NCBI RefSeq assembly: GCF_014204865.1
Contig: NZ_JACHMG010000001.1
Location: forward strand, 2,480,001-2,544,000
Origin: Amycolatopsis jiangsuensis
Lineage (GTDB): Bacteria > Actinomycetota > Actinomycetes > Mycobacteriales > Pseudonocardiaceae
Reading direction: 5' to 3'
DNA length: 64,000 nt
Positions 22,270-29,424 of this stretch are shown here, in pieces. The position numbers and the translations under genes are program-made. Every line of letters starts with the position of its first letter. Positions within the stretch are counted from its first letter, which is position 1. The notes under the pieces are model-generated. The model searched no databases. It saw only the letters and a list, made by a program, of their open reading frames with translations, and was not told where the DNA came from.

Positions 22270-23292
22270 TCACTGCGGGTCGGACCGCGCCTTGCTCGGC
22301 TGCACCCGTTTCGGTTCGCCGGGCATCTTCGGATAGTCCGGCGGGTACGGCAGTTCGGCCCCGCCGAGGTCGCGGTCGTCGCGCTCGTACCACTCCAGCA
22401 GCGTCTCGAGCCCGAACGCGGTGGCGTCCATCGGCTCGTGCAGGTCGCCGTGCTCGGCCAGGAACCCGGGCACCGTGCGCACGTCGAAGTCGTCCGGATG
22501 CACCTGCCCGAGCAGGTCCCAGGTCAACGGCGTGGAGACGGTGGCGCGCGGTGTACCGCGCACCGACCAGGACGAAGCGACCGTACGGTCCCGGGCGGCC
22601 TGGTTGTAGTCGAGGAACACCCGGCCGCCGCGCTCCTCCTTCCACCAGGACACCGTCGCCTTGTCCGGGATCCGCCGCTCGACCTCCCGGCCGAGCGCGA
22701 TCACCGCGTGCCGCACCGCGACGAAATCCCACTCCGGGCGGATCCGCACGAGCACGTGCACGCCACGGCCGCCGGAGGTCTTCGGGTACCCGGTGAGCCC
22801 GGCATCGGCGAGCACCTCGCGCACCACCCCGGCCACCTCGACCGCGTCGCCGAAGCCGGCGCGTTCCGGCGGATCGACGTCCACGCGCAGTTCGTCCGGG
22901 CGGTCGAGCTCGGGACGGCGCACCGGCCACGGGTGGAAGTCGAACGTGCCGAGATTGGCCGCCCAGGCGAACACCGCGGGCTCGGTCGGGCAGACCTCGT
23001 CCGCGGTCCGGCCGGAAGGAAAGGTGATCCGTGCCGTCTCGAGCCAGTCCGGGGCACCTTTGGGCACGCGCTTGGCGTAGAACCAGTCCCCGGTGACGCC
23101 GTCGACGTAGCGTTTCAGTGTGGTCGGCCGCTCGCCGATCGCACGCAGCAACGGCGTGGCCACGGCGAGGTAGTACTCCACCACTTCCCGCTTCGTGACA
23201 CCCGGGCCGGGGAAGTACACCTTGTCCGGGTTGGACACCCGCACGGTGCGCTCCCCTGCCTGGTACTCCACCGGATCACCGTGCTTGGGCAT
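22270..23292 (-). CDS. LigD-type polymerase/primase domain protein (NHEJ)
   Basis: 340 residues, a stand-alone LigD polymerase domain: VRVSNPDKVYFPGPGVTKRE, RYVDGVTGDWFYAKRVPKG, the metal-binding LRVDVDPPERAGF, the TSGGRGVHVLVRI loop, and VRGTPRATVSTPLTWDLL. Such proteins fill and extend ends in non-homologous end joining, with a preference for ribonucleotides. It is not fused to ligase or nuclease domains. LigC is 12 kb away; Ku is not in the window. Confidence 0.88.
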   Translation of the reverse strand: MPKHGDPVEYQAGERTVRVSNPDKVYFPGPGVTKREVVEYYLAVATPLLRAIGERPTTLKRYVDGVTGDWFYAKRVPKGAPDWLETARITFPSGRTADEVCPTEPAVFAWAANLGTFDFHPWPVRRPELDRPDELRVDVDPPERAGFGDAVEVAGVVREVLADAGLTGYPKTSGGRGVHVLVRIRPEWDFVAVRHAVIALGREVERRIPDKATVSWWKEERGGRVFLDYNQAARDRTVASSWSVRGTPRATVSTPLTWDLLGQVHPDDFDVRTVPGFLAEHGDLHEPMDATAFGLETLLEWYERDDRDLGGAELPYPPDYPKMPGEPKRVQPSKARSDPQ

Positions 23293-23379
23293 GCGCCCAC
23301 GTTAGCCGCGAACGGCCTCCCGGTCGCGAGAACCGGGCCGCCGCGGCGAGGCCGGGGCCGGGTGCCCTACCGTTGCGGG

Positions 23380-24057
23380 GTGTCCGGCAGAACCAAGCTC
23401 CTCCTCGCGCTCGCTGTGCTCGCCGTGCTCGCGGCGGCCGCGGTGTGGCTGCCGATTCCCGGTCCCGCCCAGCTGCGGCAGTGGGCCGTAGCGACCGGGC
23501 CGGCCACGCCGGTGGTACTGCTGGTCGCGTACTCGCTGCTCGCCGTCGCGCCGATCCCGCGGACGGTGTTCAACCTCGCCGCCGGGCTGCTGGTGGGCAG
23601 CTTCGCCGGGGTGGTCATCGCGCTCGTCGCGACCACGATCGCGGCGGGGCTCTCGTTCGGGCTGGCGCGGGTGCTCGGCCGGGACCTGGTCACCCGCCAC
23701 CTGCACCGCGCGCCGGTCCGGATCGTCAACGAACGGCTGTCCGGCGGCGGCACGCTGGCGGTCACCTCGCTGCGGCTGATCCCGGTGGTGCCGTTCGCAC
23801 CGCTGAGCTACCTGTGCGGTGTGTCGTCGGTGAAACTGCTGCCGTTCCTGGCCGGCACGGCGCTCGGCAGCGTGCCCGGCACGATCGCGGTCGTCGTCTT
23901 CGCCGACGCTCTCACCGGCGACACGCCGCCCGCGCTTCTGGCCAGTTACGCGGTCTTCGCGGCGGCCGGCGTGGCCGGGTTGCTGCGCGTGCTGCGGCGC
24001 CGCACCCCGGCTGCCGCGCCGGAGGAACCCGCGAGGTCGCCGGCACCGGCTGGCTGA
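23380..24057 (+). CDS. TVP38/TMEM64 (SNARE-associated/DedA-like) membrane protein
   Basis: 225 residues from GTG 23380. There are about five membrane segments, with the VTT-domain signature VAPIPRTVFNLAAGLLVGSF, SLRLIPVVPFAPLSYLCGVS and FLAGTALGSVPGTIAVVVF. Relatives of the DedA superfamily are thought to act as lipid flippases/scramblases in the membrane. The substrate is not readable. It begins 87 bases from the divergent LigD-polymerase gene. Confidence 0.82.
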   Translation: MSGRTKLLLALAVLAVLAAAAVWLPIPGPAQLRQWAVATGPATPVVLLVAYSLLAVAPIPRTVFNLAAGLLVGSFAGVVIALVATTIAAGLSFGLARVLGRDLVTRHLHRAPVRIVNERLSGGGTLAVTSLRLIPVVPFAPLSYLCGVSSVKLLPFLAGTALGSVPGTIAVVVFADALTGDTPPALLASYAVFAAAGVAGLLRVLRRRTPAAAPEEPARSPAPAG

Positions 24058-24160
24058 CGGCGGCCGGGTACTCCCGACCGCTACACTCGTTCGCGTGCGC
24101 GAGGGGTATCCGCGCTGAGCACGACCACGAATCATCGGGATTTCGTCAGGAGCGGTCGCC

Positions 24161-25828
24161 ATCGACACCGGGCAGCTGATCGCGGGGCACTATCGCCTCG
24201 TCGAGCACATTGGTAGCGGTGCCATGGGCGTGGTGTGGCGCGCGGTCGACGTGCGCCTGGAACGATCCGTGGCGATCAAGCAGATCCTGCCGCAGCCGGG
24301 CGTGTCCGAGGCCGAGCGCGACAACATGCGCCAGCGCGCCATGCGCGAGGCGAAGAACGCCGCCCGCTTCCAGCACCCGAACGCCATCGTGGTGTTCGAC
24401 ATCGCCGAGCACAGCGGCGACCCGTGCCTGGTGATGGAGTACCTCAACGGGCCCAGCCTGTCCGCGGTGCTGGCCGAGCGCGGCCCGCTTCCGGTGGGCC
24501 AGGTCGCGCGGATCGGCGAGCAGGTCGCCGCCGCACTGGTCGCCGCGCACCGGGCCGGGATCGTGCACCGGGACGTCAAACCCGGCAACATCCTCATCGA
24601 CGAGACCGGCACCGCGAAGATCACCGACTTCGGCATCTCCCGCGCGGCCGGCGACATGACGCTCACCCAGACCGGCCTGATCGGCGGCACCCCGGCCTAT
24701 CTCGCGCCCGAACTGGCCCGCGGGGCCGACCCGGTGCCCAGCTCCGACGTGTTCGCCCTGGGCGCCACGCTGTACCAGGCGATCGAGGGCCAGACGCCGT
24801 ACGGCAACACCACCAACCAGCTCGCGCTGCTCTACGCCGCGGCCAACGGCCAGGTCAACCCGCCCACCCAGGCCGGGCCGGCCACCGCACTGCTGATGAG
24901 CCTGCTGCGCACGGAGCCCGGCGAGCGCCCGAGCATGGCCGAAGCCCGCGAGCGGCTGGCCAAGCTGGCCACCGGCGAGCCGATGGCGCCGCCGCTGATC
25001 GCCGGCGGGCAGGGCACCGGCTCCGGTTCGCGTCCGCCATGGCAGCGCGTGGCCGCGGCGCCGCCGGCGCCGTCCTCGGCACCCATCCCGGCGCAGAAGG
25101 CCCCGTCAAACCCTCCGCGCACACCCACCGCGGCGTTCACGCCGATGCGCTCGCCGTCCGCCCCGCCCGCCACTCCCCCGCGTCCGCAACCCGCCGTTCA
25201 GCAGCCCGCCCAGCGCCCCGCGCCCAGCGCGGCCGCGCCGGACTACCGCGGCGCCGGCGGATCCTCGAAGTCCGGGCGAACCCGCCGGACGGCGCTGCTC
25301 GCCGGCGGCGCCGCGGCGGTCGTCGTGGTGGCGGTGATCGTGTTCCTGGTACTGACCAACTCCGGCGGCTCCGACGGAGGCTCGAACAACGATCAGGCTA
25401 CTCAGTCGGCACCCAGTGCGCCCAGCTTCACTGGCAGCGCCCCGAAATCCAGTCCGATGACCACCAGCTCGACTCCCAACGTGGCCTCGAACGGCGAGGT
25501 CGAATGGCAACCCGCCGGTAAACAGGTGATCGCGTTCTACGGCAAAGTAAACAGCGACCCCGTCGGCGCTTGGGCCATGCTGGCGCCCGACGCGCAGGCC
25601 GTCTACGGAAACCAGGAAACCTTCCAGGCTTTCTGGTCACAGCACCCGTTGAGCGGCTACGGCGGAGCCAACGCCTACAAGCGTGCCAACAACGACGACG
25701 GCTCGGTCGACATCCAGATCATCCTTCACTTCAAGGACATAGCCGACGAGATCAAGACCCTCCGCGTGCTCGATTCCAGCGACGGCAACCTCAAGATCTC
25801 CGGCGACACCCGCAGCGGTCACTCGTAG
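24161..25828 (+). CDS. PknB-like Ser/Thr protein kinase with extracellular sensor domain A
   Basis: 555 residues if begun at ATC 24161 (xDTGQLIAGHYRLVEHIGSG). No ATG, GTG, TTG or CTG occurs in frame between a TGA at 24116 and ATG 24224, which would cut off the glycine loop. AGGAG at 24148-24152 sits 8 bases before the ATC, so a rare ATC start or a lost start codon is suggested. The kinase domain is complete: VAIK (K40), HRDVKPGNILI, DFG, YLAPELA. A Pro-rich linker, one membrane helix (about 376-398) and a 155-residue outer domain follow. Residues 217-400 are repeated at 27524-28075. The outer domain (GAWAMLAPDAQAVYGNQETF) is homologous to, but clearly different from, domain B. Confidence 0.85.
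   Translation: MDTGQLIAGHYRLVEHIGSGAMGVVWRAVDVRLERSVAIKQILPQPGVSEAERDNMRQRAMREAKNAARFQHPNAIVVFDIAEHSGDPCLVMEYLNGPSLSAVLAERGPLPVGQVARIGEQVAAALVAAHRAGIVHRDVKPGNILIDETGTAKITDFGISRAAGDMTLTQTGLIGGTPAYLAPELARGADPVPSSDVFALGATLYQAIEGQTPYGNTTNQLALLYAAANGQVNPPTQAGPATALLMSLLRTEPGERPSMAEARERLAKLATGEPMAPPLIAGGQGTGSGSRPPWQRVAAAPPAPSSAPIPAQKAPSNPPRTPTAAFTPMRSPSAPPATPPRPQPAVQQPAQRPAPSAAAPDYRGAGGSSKSGRTRRTALLAGGAAAVVVVAVIVFLVLTNSGGSDGGSNNDQATQSAPSAPSFTGSAPKSSPMTTSSTPNVASNGEVEWQPAGKQVIAFYGKVNSDPVGAWAMLAPDAQAVYGNQETFQAFWSQHPLSGYGGANAYKRANNDDGSVDIQIILHFKDIADEIKTLRVLDSSDGNLKISGDTRSGHS
24809..25360. repeat. 552-bp direct repeat, copy 1 (inside the kinase gene)
   Basis: Begins at ACCACCAACCAG in the kinase C-lobe and ends at CTGACCAAC, just after the transmembrane helix. 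It matches 27524-28075 at 551 of 552 positions, with no indels; the single difference is G24862 versus A27577, which is silent. On both sides the sequences diverge at once. Confidence 0.97.
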
Positions 25829-26119
25829 ACTCCCGGACACTGAGACGAGCTGTCAGGATTCGACAGCCTGCACACGTCGCCTGTCGGCTTCGGTTACCAC
25901 AGCACCGCAGACGGCCTTCGTCCGAAATTGCGGTAAACGGCCCAGTGCACAGCAAGTTAGCCACTCGATCGATAATTTCGTGCGCCATTTCGCGACACCA
26001 CATATCCAACACAAGCCGACGTCGCGCTTACCGGACCAGGCCCAGCACTCCAATGGAGCATTGATTTTTTAGGTCCTTAACGGTAAATGCCAGAGTGGAA
26101 AACTAATCGAGGAGGGTTC
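25829..26119. other. lower-GC gap between kinase and secreted protein
   Basis: 291 bases, visibly richer in A/T than the kinase gene. No coding frame with family resemblance and no clear terminator are seen. A GAGGAGG ribosome site for the next gene lies at the right end (26109-26115). Confidence 0.5.
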
Positions 26120-26527
26120 GTGAAGCTGCCTTTAATAGCAAGATTTCTCACTTTTACAGTTATCTTAGTCACCTGTACGCTGAACTCAACTTCTCCAGCT
26201 TCCGCCGACTCAACCGGCAAGAACTCAACAAAAGCCGGCCCAGCCTGCCTCGAGCTCGAAAACGGCAGCCTCTGTCTGTACGTGTCGCCCATCAATCAGC
26301 AGGGTCAGATCAACGTCACCTACGAGAAGTGGGCCGGAAGCCCGTTTCTCGCACGCGTGGCGTGGGTGAACCCGACCGGAACCCGATTCAACGGCCCTTA
26401 CGAGCAAATGAGTTACCACCATATTTACGGGAACGTTTGGCCCACATGGGTGGGCTCGGGATGCAACTATGGAATCCTTTCCATCTCCGGTGGCGCGGAG
26501 TACCGGACCCCGGACTTGTGCGTGTAG
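26120..26527 (+). CDS. small secreted protein, four cysteines, unknown family
   Basis: 135 residues from GTG 26120, with a very strong GAGGAGG ribosome site 4 bases upstream. A signal peptide (KLPLIARFLTFTVILVTCTL) ends in a likely cleavage site ASA/DS. The mature part of about 100 residues has four Cys (ACLELENGSLCLY, SGCNYG, DLCV), which could make two disulfides, and many aromatic residues (VTYEKWAGSPF, MSYHHIYGNVWPTWVG). Codon use is far less GC-biased than neighbours, which suggests recent acquisition. No family is recognised. It sits between sensor domain A and an IS element. Confidence 0.75.
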   Translation: MKLPLIARFLTFTVILVTCTLNSTSPASADSTGKNSTKAGPACLELENGSLCLYVSPINQQGQINVTYEKWAGSPFLARVAWVNPTGTRFNGPYEQMSYHHIYGNVWPTWVGSGCNYGILSISGGAEYRTPDLCV

Positions 26528-26542
26528 GTATTGATCGATTTA

Positions 26543-27410
26543 GAGCGTGTCTCATTTGGCGAGTTTCTTGTAACAGGTGATGGTGGCGGCGAGGGTGAGG
26601 AAGGCGAGGTAGTGGCTGGGTTTGCGTTCGTAGCGGATGGTCAGGCGCCGGTAGCTGGTCAGCCAGGCGATGGACCGTTCGATCACCCACCGGTGTCTTC
26701 CGAGTTTCTCGGTGGATTCGATGCCCTTGCGGGCGATGCGCGGGATGATCCCGCGCCGGCGAAGCCAGTCGCGCAGGGCTGGGATGTCGTAGGCCTTGTC
26801 GGCGTGGAGCTTGGCCGGTTTCCGGCGGCGCGGTCCGCGGCGAGACCGGATCGGCGGCAGCGCGTTGACCAAGGGTCTGAGCGCGTGACTGTCGTGAGTG
26901 TTGGCCGCGGAGATCCCAACGGTTAACGGAAGTCCGGCCCGGTCGGACAGCACATGGATCTTCGAGCCGGGCTTGCCGCGATCGACCGGGCTCCGACCGG
27001 TCAGACCGCCCCCCTTTTGGCCCTGACGGATGCTCCGTCCAGGACCGCACGCGACCAGTCGATCATGCCCTTGCCGCCAAGTTCGTCCAGCACCGCCCGG
27101 TGCACATCGCGCCACAGGCCGACCTTGGTCCACTCGGTGAACCGCCGATGCGCTGTCGGCACGGTGACCCCGAAGCTGGGCGGCAGATGTCGCCAGGCGC
27201 AGCCGCTGGTCAGCACGAACACGATCGCGGTGAACACCGCCCGGTCGCCCACTCGTGACATGCCGCCACCCTGCGGGCGCGTCTTTCCCGGCGGGATCAA
27301 CGGTTCGACCAGCGCCCACAACTCGTCGGGCACCAGCCGTCGCGACAACTCGTCCATCACAGCTCATGATCATGCCCACACCTCAACCAACAACCAAGTG
27401 AGACACGCTC
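26543..27410 (-). mobile_element. complete IS5-family insertion sequence (868 bp)
   Basis: Terminal inverted repeats GAGCGTGTCTCATTTGGC (26543-26560) and, on the other strand, GAGCGTGTCTCACTTGGT (27410-27393) match at 16 of 18. They are flanked by the target duplication TTA (26540-26542 and 27411-27413). The single transposase, in two frames joined by a frameshift, fills the element. Length, TTA duplication and two-ORF layout fit the IS427 group of IS5. Both ends and the gene look intact, so it may be active. Confidence 0.93.
26552..27360 (-). CDS. IS5-family DDE transposase, two ORFs with programmed frameshift
   Basis: ORF A (27360 to 27001, 119 residues) begins MMDELSRRLVPDELWALVEP and contains GCAWRHLPPSFGVTVPTAHR and the first catalytic Asp in AVLDGASVRAK; it ends RAKRGAV. 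ORF B continues in the -1 frame from the same point (GLTGRSPVDRGKPGSKIHVL, LHADKAYD with the second Asp, RHRWVIERSIAWL with the Glu) to 26552. The frames meet at an A4G6 run on the coding strand near 27009-27018, a typical slippery site. The joined protein is a full-length DDE transposase. Confidence 0.88.
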
Positions 27411-27425
27411 TTAGTTGGCCTGCGT

Positions 27426-27459
27426 CCTCTGCCTTGGCCGTGGACGGCCAAGGCAGAGG
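27426..27459. repeat. perfect 16-bp inverted repeat in the segment before copy 2
   Basis: CCTCTGCCTTGGCCGT (27426-27441), loop GG, ACGGCCAAGGCAGAGG (27444-27459). A smaller dyad CTACCG/CGGTAG follows at 27465-27479. This 113-base stretch (27411-27523) belongs to neither the IS nor the kinase. In a single-crossover model it is the sequence that preceded the linker in the incoming DNA. It could be a terminator or a recombination site. Confidence 0.7.
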
Positions 27460-27478
27460 ATGGTCTACCGAGACGGTA

Positions 27479-28537
27479 GTGCGCCGCTGGTGGGCTGAGT
27501 GGCTCCAACGGCTTACCGTAGAAACCACCAACCAGCTCGCGCTGCTCTACGCCGCGGCCAACGGCCAGGTCAACCCACCCACCCAGGCCGGGCCGGCCAC
27601 CGCACTGCTGATGAGCCTGCTGCGCACGGAGCCCGGCGAGCGCCCGAGCATGGCCGAAGCCCGCGAGCGGCTGGCCAAGCTGGCCACCGGCGAGCCGATG
27701 GCGCCGCCGCTGATCGCCGGCGGGCAGGGCACCGGCTCCGGTTCGCGTCCGCCATGGCAGCGCGTGGCCGCGGCGCCGCCGGCGCCGTCCTCGGCACCCA
27801 TCCCGGCGCAGAAGGCCCCGTCAAACCCTCCGCGCACACCCACCGCGGCGTTCACGCCGATGCGCTCGCCGTCCGCCCCGCCCGCCACTCCCCCGCGTCC
27901 GCAACCCGCCGTTCAGCAGCCCGCCCAGCGCCCCGCGCCCAGCGCGGCCGCGCCGGACTACCGCGGCGCCGGCGGATCCTCGAAGTCCGGGCGAACCCGC
28001 CGGACGGCGCTGCTCGCCGGCGGCGCCGCGGCGGTCGTCGTGGTGGCGGTGATCGTGTTCCTGGTACTGACCAACAGCAGCGGCTCCGGCCAGTCCGGCT
28101 CCGACCAGGTCGCGCAGCCCCCGCCGTCGAGCGCAGGGCAGCCGAGCGGAAACGCGCCGAGCAGCAGTCCCGACGTCCCGACCGGTCCGCTGGGCCAGAC
28201 CCCACCGGACGGCAAGATCTCCGACTACAGCGCGGCGGGCACCTTCATCACCGACGGTTTCTTCGCCGATCCGGGAGCGAACTGGTCGCGTCTCACCCCC
28301 GCGGCGCAGGGGGTGTACGGCGACCAGGCCGCGTTCCAGCAGTACTGGGCCGCGCACCCGATCGGCAAGTACGAGGACGCACGAGCCGACAGCGGCGGCG
28401 CCAACGCGGACGGCTCGATCACCATGAACCTGACGATCGACGGAACGCGCCGCGGCTACCGCGTCATCTCCTCCGGCGGCCAGATGCTGATCGACAGCGA
28501 CACCAGGCTCGACTCCGGCGGCACGTCGAACCAGTGA
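27479..28537 (+). pseudogene. kinase-less linker, membrane helix and sensor domain B
   Basis: From 27524 the frame repeats residues 217-400 of the kinase exactly, then continues for 154 residues as outer domain B (NWSRLTPAAQGVYGDQAAFQ, QYWAAHPIGKYEDARADSGG, MLIDSDTRLDSGG). Domain B is homologous to domain A but shares few identical residues. There is no kinase N-lobe, no ATP site and no activation loop. The only in-frame start near the junction is GTG 27479 (VRRWWAEWLQRLTVE), with a weak ribosome site. It is either the displaced original 3' end of the kinase gene or a silent sensor cassette. Confidence 0.8.
27524..28075. repeat. 552-bp direct repeat, copy 2
   Basis: Same sequence as 24809-25360 with one silent difference (A27577 for G24862), offset exactly 2715 bases. 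Near-identity over Pro-rich linker codons means the duplication is recent or kept identical by recombination. Confidence 0.97.
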
Positions 28538-28610
28538 CGATCGGCCCGCCCGGTGAGACACCGCACGCAACCCGGTGGGCTAACCCGCCGGCAGGGCTTA
28601 CCGTGGAGCC

Positions 28611-28916
28611 ATGGCCGAGAGCGCTGCTGTGCCGCCGGGCTGGAACCCGCGCTTCCACGACGATCTGATCGGGCTCGACCCGGCGGATCCGGAGGTCCGC
28701 GCGTTCGCCGCCCACCTCGACCGGATGGAGCGGACCGGGCCGACGTTCACCGTCGAGGCCTGTCTCGACCAGGTGGCCGACTTCGCCGAGTCGAGCACCC
28801 GCACCGGCGGGCTGCGGTACTGGGTCTCGGTGCTGTTCGTGGTGCTTCTCGTGCTCGGGCTGCTGGTCACCGCCTGGGACATCGCGACCCACACCATCGC
28901 GTTCCTGTCGAGGTAA
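28611..28916 (+). CDS. hypothetical single-span membrane protein
   Basis: 101 residues: a soluble N-terminal half (GWNPRFHDDLIGLDPADPEV, RAFAAHLDRMERTGPTFTVE) and one C-terminal membrane helix (YWVSVLFVVLLVLGLLVTAW). Ribosome site GTGGAG just before the ATG. No family recognised. It lies in front of msrB with 19 bases to the ATG chosen for that gene. Confidence 0.6.
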   Translation: MAESAAVPPGWNPRFHDDLIGLDPADPEVRAFAAHLDRMERTGPTFTVEACLDQVADFAESSTRTGGLRYWVSVLFVVLLVLGLLVTAWDIATHTIAFLSR

Positions 28917-28935
28917 CGTGGAAGGCGTGAAAGGT

Positions 28936-29364
28936 ATGAAACCCGTGGTCGGCACCACTCCGCGCGTGGTGAAGTCCGAGCAGGAATGGCGCGAGCAGCT
29001 GAATCCGGAGGAGTACGCGGTCCTCCGCCAGGCCGGAACCGAACGGCCGTTCACCGGCGAGTACACCGACACGAAGACCACCGGCGTCTACTCCTGCCGG
29101 GCCTGCGGCGCGGAACTGTTCCGCAGTGACACCAAGTTCGAGAGCCACTGCGGCTGGCCGTCGTTCTACGACCCGGCGGACTCGGACGCGGTGCTGCTGC
29201 GCGAGGACCGCGCCCTGGGCATGCGGCGGATCGAGGTGCTGTGCGCTTCGTGCCACAGCCACCTCGGGCACGTCTTCGAAGGTGAGGGCTACGCCACCCC
29301 GACCGACCAGCGCTACTGCATCAACTCGATCTCGCTGAAACTCGCACCGGAGTCCGACGGCTGA
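28936..29364 (+). CDS. msrB: peptide-methionine (R)-S-oxide reductase
   Basis: 142 residues from ATG 28936 (a GTG at 28918 is possible). Typical MsrB: EWREQLNPEEYAVLRQAGTE, RPFTGEY, zinc pairs CRACG and CASCHSHLGHVF, FESHCGWPSFYDP, and the catalytic Cys in RYCINSISLKL. It reduces methionine-R-sulfoxide in proteins. The stop codon lies within the first unit of a 16-bp tandem repeat. Confidence 0.92.
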   Translation: MKPVVGTTPRVVKSEQEWREQLNPEEYAVLRQAGTERPFTGEYTDTKTTGVYSCRACGAELFRSDTKFESHCGWPSFYDPADSDAVLLREDRALGMRRIEVLCASCHSHLGHVFEGEGYATPTDQRYCINSISLKLAPESDG

Positions 29365-29424
29365 CCCACGGCGCTGCTGACCCACGGCGCTGCTGACACG
29401 CGGCACAGTTGACCCACGGCGCGG
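29361..29424. repeat. four tandem 16-bp units at the msrB stop
   Basis: Units begin at 29361, 29377, 29393 and 29409. The first two are identical (CTGACCCACGGCGCTG); the third and fourth are degenerate (CTGACACGCGGCACAG, TTGACCCACGGCGCGG). The first unit contains the msrB TGA. Confidence 0.85.

Follow-up and report, generated by a model that had tools for sequence, protein, structure and literature searches.

A 64,000-nucleotide stretch of the Amycolatopsis jiangsuensis genome (contig NZ_JACHMG010000001.1, positions 2,480,001 to 2,544,000 of the forward strand), called the window here, carries a gene for a Hanks-type receptor Ser/Thr kinase that is followed by a second, kinase-less copy of its linker and membrane helix with a different outer domain attached. 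We conclude that this locus very probably encodes a receptor kinase with an exchangeable sensor, in which a module carrying sensor A from another Amycolatopsis lineage entered beside the native sensor B, and B was kept downstream. The features concerned are listed below, with positions counted from the first base of the window. Genomes, loci and predicted proteins of relatives are cited by G, L and P numbers.

24161 to 25828, + strand: Hanks-type receptor Ser/Thr kinase with sensor A (kinase domain, Pro-rich linker, one membrane helix, outer sensor); Pfam Pkinase, 4.2e-47; apparent ATC start
24809 to 25360, + strand: repeat copy 1 (kinase-domain end, linker, membrane helix), from sequence comparison
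25361 to 25825, + strand: stalk and sensor A, with a folded part (25490-25825) predicted to be NTF2-like
26120 to 26527, + strand: open reading frame 2 (ORF2), a small protein of 135 aa with an N-terminal export signal read by eye; homologs P0002 (81%) and P0003 (82%)
26543 to 27410, - strand: IS5-family insertion sequence (IS), 868 bp, with TTA on both sides; NCBIfam NF033580
27425 to 27460, no strand: perfect inverted repeat of 17 bp with a 2-base loop, perhaps the terminator of ORF2; from the sequence
27481 to 27523, + strand: end of the presumably imported segment, a putative remnant of the donor promoter region of gene 611 joined to kinase codon 217; matches the bases before the 611 ATG in 14 genomes
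27524 to 28075, + strand: repeat copy 2, without kinase domain, from sequence comparison
28076 to 28537, + strand: presumably displaced native sensor B; 77% identical to the sensor of G073, and kinase-joined in G073, P0012 and P0013
28611 to 28916, + strand: gene 611, a small membrane protein and stable right neighbour, which follows the kinase in all 76 whole loci

Native and incoming modules

The two copies of the direct repeat (24809-25360 and 27524-28075, 2715 bases apart) are 552 bp long and 99.8% identical. Their sole mismatch, G at 24862 and A at 27577, is silent (CCG/CCA, Pro), and the identity stops abruptly at both the left and the right end. Such a repeat is far beyond chance, and we rejected a chance origin for it. 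Copy 1 lies inside the complete kinase, with its Pkinase match, and runs on into sensor A. The reading frame of copy 2 is open and runs on into sensor B; this copy gave no Pfam match at E 0.1, and together with sensor B it forms a unit without a kinase domain or an obvious start. Sensors A and B are 35% identical by BLAST. The initial annotation, made from the letters alone, had described the repeat with its silent mismatch and spacing, a complete kinase with A at copy 1 and a kinase-less copy 2 with B, and the homology of the two strongly diverged outer domains. Sequence comparison, Pfam scan and reading frames, and BLAST, respectively, bear out this description. Between the copies lie ORF2, the IS and, to the right of the IS, 112 bp in which the perfect stem-loop is followed by a stretch resembling the promoter of gene 611.

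The closest relative, G073 (91.5% identity of core DNA), has a kinase with a B-type sensor at this locus and no insert. Its sensor (type B1) is 77% identical to B, and its locus matches the window over 23359-25381 and again over 27524-29366; on the G073 side the two aligned blocks share the repeat, as expected of an uninterrupted site. In the window, B is followed by the genome's own 611 region, aligned with that of G073 up to position 29366. Kinases with B-type sensors are also found in A. ultiminotia (P0012, 77% over 73% of B) and A. panacis (P0013, 67%).

The affinities of the inserted segment lie elsewhere in the genus. The sensors nearest to A are P0006 (66%) and P0007 (64%). Since their source contigs are equal in size (49651 and 20385, respectively) to those of the ORF2 homologs P0003 and P0002, sensor A and ORF2 are probably neighbours there as well. 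Another clade has the kinase joined to A, in some members followed by ORF2. At the same locus, ORF2 lies behind sensor A in G067 and, with an internal in-frame stop, in G030; the insert of the window is collinear with G067 through sensor A, ORF2 and the sequence preceding the 611 ATG. The promoter remnant matches the region before the 611 ATG in 14 genomes (76-87% over 39-63 bases, E 3e-7 to 4e-3; 81% for G067), and all 14 fall in a 27-row clade, other than that of the window, of a core tree of 77 rows built from the upstream gene, the kinase and msrB. The remnant halts just short of the position of the 611 ATG, where kinase codon 217 follows. Thus, module A with ORF2 probably came from another lineage and displaced B without deleting it; ORF2 would be a part of the imported module and a candidate partner of sensor A. 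The insert is low in G+C (63% for sensor A, 55% for ORF2), which might suggest a source outside the genus, an origin that we rejected since the modules of G067 and G030 are low too.

We also rejected A as the older state in this lineage, given the B1 sensor and lack of insert in G073, the position of B before the genome's own 611 region, and the occurrence of the nearest A sensors and of the promoter remnant's matches in another clade. The view of the initial annotation that B was the original sensor and A the newcomer is supported by the kinases joined to B in G073, P0012 and P0013, by those joined to A in the other clade, and by the genus-wide exchange described below.

In linker and helix, the window shows 73% identity to G073, versus 53-61% to P0006, P0007 and G067. 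Both copies of the repeat are therefore native in type, and the linker of the donor did not come along. At the right junction, between the donor 611 promoter and kinase codon 217, next to no bases are shared; as this junction is not homologous, at least one illegitimate joining was needed, either the closure of a circle or the insertion of a linear fragment. The integration of a circle by a single crossover, as first proposed, is thus not established. In the scenario that we favour, a module composed of sensor A, ORF2 and the end of the donor promoter would have entered beside native sensor B, leaving the kinase with A. Its left side would be due to homologous recombination, within the repeat or at its end, and its right side to end joining, in a linear fragment or on closing a circle that then integrated. 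A circle model has been put forward for rhs (PMC2935791), and a linear fragment with one homologous end has served as a model for Vibrio effectors (PMC5361080); both would yield the product seen in the window. With linkers of native type on both sides, the donor would also have to be conspecific, or the crossover would have to fall at the extreme end of the repeat and be accompanied by duplication. The other genomes have no second copy, as a clean replacement would give. A crossover between the two copies is structurally possible; it would excise A together with ORF2 and the IS and join the kinase to B again.

Sensor regions across the genus

We compared the locus in 79 Amycolatopsis relatives. 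G074 was left out as its locus is split, giving 78 loci, of which G037 and G038 end inside the kinase; 76 loci are whole. A kinase match was found in all 80 genomes of the genus, interrupted by contig ends in three. All 76 whole loci of relatives have one kinase, one sensor and gene 611 behind, with 611 at about 2.6 kb from the kinase and two other genes between in four of them (G026, G057, G003, G053). In these four (L173, L177, L178, L181), a common insertion sits at the right module border; its two genes, 367 and 453 codons long, resemble by eye an amidohydrolase and a glutamine synthetase. The N-terminal part of the kinase is 93-99% identical to that of the window in the first 19 loci and 85-99% across the genus. 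The comparison with relatives, proposed with the initial annotation as a check, thus shows an arrangement that is not fixed, with kinases joined to B (G073) and to other sensors.

The sensor tree (82 rows, with only 113 columns) conflicts with the core tree. With 13 sensor types, which we assigned from the sensor tree, 26 changes are needed on the core tree, compared with a minimum of 12 if each type arose once and with 43-53 in 1000 shuffles; these counts cover 67 of the 77 rows, the 10 rows without a type label being excluded. Type A1 as labelled is no clade of its own, as half of a 10-row clade (99/93 support) that includes it consists of A3 and the window sensor. A coarser division into six classes, independent of the A1 labelling, needs 19 changes. 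In 28 of 76 relatives, the sensor is less than 50% identical to that of the nearest neighbour, with core DNA identity below 85% in five of these 28 pairs. Among 20 pairs with core DNA at least 97% identical, the sensors are below 50% in eight and at least 80% in eight. For example, G016 and G032 have the same kinase domain and 97.9% core DNA identity, and their sensors are 29% identical; the comparison of G016 with G029 and G056 gives 64-65% for the sensor, at 85-86% core DNA identity. P0006 and P0020 similarly have almost identical linkers, helices and stalks, with an A sensor at the end of one and a B sensor at the end of the other. P0020 is a predicted protein of 234 aa on a 15.9-kb contig, with linker, helix and B-type sensor and without a kinase domain; it represents another displaced module, or a gene cut by the contig end or a frameshift.

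Identity profiles in 60-base bins were drawn for 13 pairs of loci. In all nine pairs with sensors of different types, identity lies mostly at 85-100% until roughly where the membrane helix ends, falls mostly to 30-75% beyond it, and recovers from the promoter or start of 611 onward. In the four same-type pairs, the sensor mostly stays above 75%, dropping to 68% in G012/G071 and to 56% in G054/G056. G046/G068 shows an additional dip in the linker. The repeat of the window stops where the helix does, 1199 bases after the start of the kinase, and the imported segment ends in the 611 promoter; the window thus displays the module borders of the genus. As a control, we examined two PASTA kinases in six pairs picked for their differing sensors, a choice that reveals a local effect and gives no rate. 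The PASTA outer domains are 75-94% and 94-98% identical in all six, versus 29-51% for the sensor of our locus, which shows, at the level of sequence, that the divergence is local to this site. As judged from these comparisons, the kinase, linker, helix and flanking genes are inherited stably, and the region from about the helix end to the 611 promoter, which holds the sensor and in some species also a gene for a small exported protein, differs by type between close Amycolatopsis species. One sensor per species line by plain descent does not fit.

Alternative explanations

The absence of exchange, with either very fast evolution of the sensor or old alleles sorted among species, seems unlikely to us. 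Members of one clade may have a rare type in common, as G013, G014 and G015 do with A3 in surroundings of type O, which this explanation would lead one to expect; against it, sensors are closer across clades than between sisters, as described for G016. A frequent or programmed switch, in which the 552-bp copies recombine often and cells alternate between kinase-A and kinase-B, is quite improbable. Direct repeats of this length, at 99.8% identity, are ample for homologous recombination, and a repeat of 522 bp at 95% identity between the main and orphan rhs genes of Salmonella recombines under selection, letting the orphan be expressed (PMC3967940). However, a crossover would delete A instead of storing it, and, of the dedicated recombinases that site-specific switches such as invertases or integrons use, none was found among the selected window ORFs that were scanned, the IS5 transposase being the sole recombinase there. 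Counting matches to a sensor profile as strong at E under 1e-15, we found one in each of 78 relatives, none in G038 (contig end) and two in the window genome. Displacement with retention thus occurs in one of 79 genomes, which makes a kept switch unlikely as a feature of the genus. Antigenic variation has several silent cassettes for one expressed gene; here, there is one displaced module, and none in those 78 relatives.

The arrangement itself might have arisen otherwise. It is very unlikely to be an artefact of assembly through the IS or the repeat. Both are repeated sequences, and the judgement is made on the assembled sequence, but the genome is in two contigs and 97% complete, the flanks of the IS are equal, the donor order is kept across it, and the junction between promoter and kinase is not at repeated IS sequence. 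An origin by IS-driven rearrangement, which the location of a multicopy IS between the modules might suggest, is hardly credible and was rejected. The IS5-family element has nine copies in this genome (98-100% identical), with TTA flanks at all eight checked; because it has equal TTA flanks like the others, it is a separate insertion. Moreover, the donor order of sensor A, ORF2 and 611 promoter runs on across it, and neither border of the repeat is at an IS end. The IS thus appears to be a bystander to the module exchange. The presence of two similar modules in tandem also evokes a plain duplication of the kinase gene, with later decay of the second kinase and divergence of the sensors. We give this next to no probability and consider its simple form refuted, since the linkers are 99.8% identical versus 35% for the sensors, B is attached to a kinase in G073, and copy 2 starts at the remnant of the donor promoter.

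Some points weigh against the import of module A beside a native B. No exact donor was found, the nearest A sensor sequence being 66% identical. A simple integration from the other clade in one step would not account for the native-type linkers in both copies; one has to postulate an earlier conspecific strain with A, or a crossover at the extreme end of the repeat. G021, the relative next in closeness after G073, carries an A2 sensor, a different A type, which complicates a simple picture of B as native. Transfer and long-kept alleles (lineage sorting) are not fully separable, and the domains themselves are putative sensors.

Kinase, companion genes and precedents

The assignment as a Hanks-type receptor kinase is based on the Pkinase match and on the VAIK, HRD, DFG and APE motifs and membrane helix read from the translation. 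The closest solved kinase is PknA, with PknB also among the nearest. The locus resembles PASTA kinases such as PknB and StkP in its succession of Hanks kinase, linker, one membrane helix and outer domain, but it differs from them in that the Pfam scan of the kinase detected no PASTA domain, NCBIfam NF033483 scored 242 bits against a cut-off of 450, and the ectodomains of PASTA kinases stay conserved in the control pairs described above. In a phage search with the kinase, similarity was confined to the kinase domain in the best 8 of 25 matches. The gene seems to initiate at an ATC codon, to judge from the conservation of this position. An in-frame TGA is found at 24116, and there is no ATG, GTG or TTG from there to the N-terminal ATC at 24161, nor from the latter to the glycine-rich loop. 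ATC occupies the start position in 79 of 79 loci of the genus and in 80 of 80 kinase loci of a second, overlapping set that includes Nocardia, with a conserved GGAG in front; in 29 of these 80, as in the window, a canonical in-frame upstream start is absent. Gene calls that start at Met22 drop the glycine-rich loop. The gene 0.9 kb upstream of the kinase (22270-23292, - strand) has a LigD primase-polymerase domain, which belongs to the end-joining machinery of bacteria. Its counterpart is clear in 17 of 19 relatives' loci and weak in one; any role of this neighbour in the event would be conjecture.

The predicted fold of the sensor, with helices packed on a curved beta sheet, is that of an NTF2-like domain. 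No toxin family was among the Pfam matches for the C-terminal domain, and a search of the sensor profile against sequences of solved structures gave two chance-level matches only. For ORF2, structure prediction from three sequences reached a pLDDT (predicted local distance difference test) of 61, comparison with solved structures gave no match, and a search in plasmids returned one weak Streptomyces match. In loci of the genus, ORF2 occurs behind A1 sensors only, in three of five A1 loci (the window, G067 and the interrupted copy of G030). It has matches in 14 of 390 genomes of the family; the window aside, identities above 45% are confined to G067 and G030. Four of seven type C loci (G068, G059, G055 and G010; L110, L112, L125 and L121) encode another small exported protein, which has a '(V)NIRQTPW' motif. 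At this locus, it accompanies type C sensors only, and its other matches in the 80 genomes are two weak ones in G016. BLASTP detected no likeness between the two small proteins. In G015 (L159), 314 bp without ORF2 or a recognizable gene separate the kinase from 611 behind an A3 sensor, perhaps the remnant of a companion gene.

These associations raise the tentative and rather doubtful possibility of a polymorphic recognition system. The outer domains would be alleles that bind different partners, including the exported proteins borne by the modules (ORF2 with A1, the other with type C), and B would be a short-lived archive of a restorable specificity. Against this idea, the companion gene is missing at two loci of type A1 and at three of type C and is broken at one more; a companion is thus not required.

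The locus has parallels in toxin systems. Like Rhs and contact-dependent inhibition (CDI) tips, it combines a constant front with a variable C-terminal module, a displaced module behind a near-identical truncated constant piece with no clear start, and a small companion gene in the module (PMC2935791, PMC3967940). Unlike those systems, with their toxin domain and cognate immunity protein, the variable part here is a kinase ectodomain predicted to be NTF2-like, one module is displaced in one genome, and the companion is missing in part of the loci. By analogy, the locus appears to work like Rhs tip displacement, without being a member of that group. It also resembles the effector displacement reported for the type VI secretion system of Vibrio cholerae, in which homology anchors one side, the other is joined illegitimately, the old gene persists downstream, and plain replacement is the commoner outcome; the immunity-gene arrays that accumulate there contrast with the single sensor fragment, kept once, of the window (PMC5361080).

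Receptor polymorphism has precedents as well. ComQXPA similarly involves a kinase receptor with a variable sensing part, closely related strains being of different types (PMC4408185). The agr quorum-sensing receptors are a second such case; unlike the Ser/Thr kinase described here, both are histidine kinases with a known peptide ligand. In both systems, the variation affects one half of the receptor, and we know of no displaced receptor half in either. In a literature search for which most subscription papers were outside reach, we found no report of outer-domain exchange in a bacterial Ser/Thr kinase. Given Rhs tip displacement and the polymorphism of quorum-sensing receptors, the 'new kind of signalling variation' of the initial annotation is too strong a description.

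For the majority of receptor Ser/Thr kinases in bacteria, the activating signal is, to our knowledge, still an open question. At this locus, outside signals would pass through the helix to the kinase, and a swap of sensor would change what the same pathway answers to. The genus offers a natural series of domain swaps, with nearly the same kinase and different outer domains in close species and with borders that show where to cut. The small exported proteins of some modules are candidate partners. If the partner hypothesis were true, sensor and partner would move together, and a species would change in one step what it hears or recognizes while keeping its kinase pathway. The window genome, which holds the old and the new module, would illustrate one way in which a receptor can be altered before its predecessor is lost.

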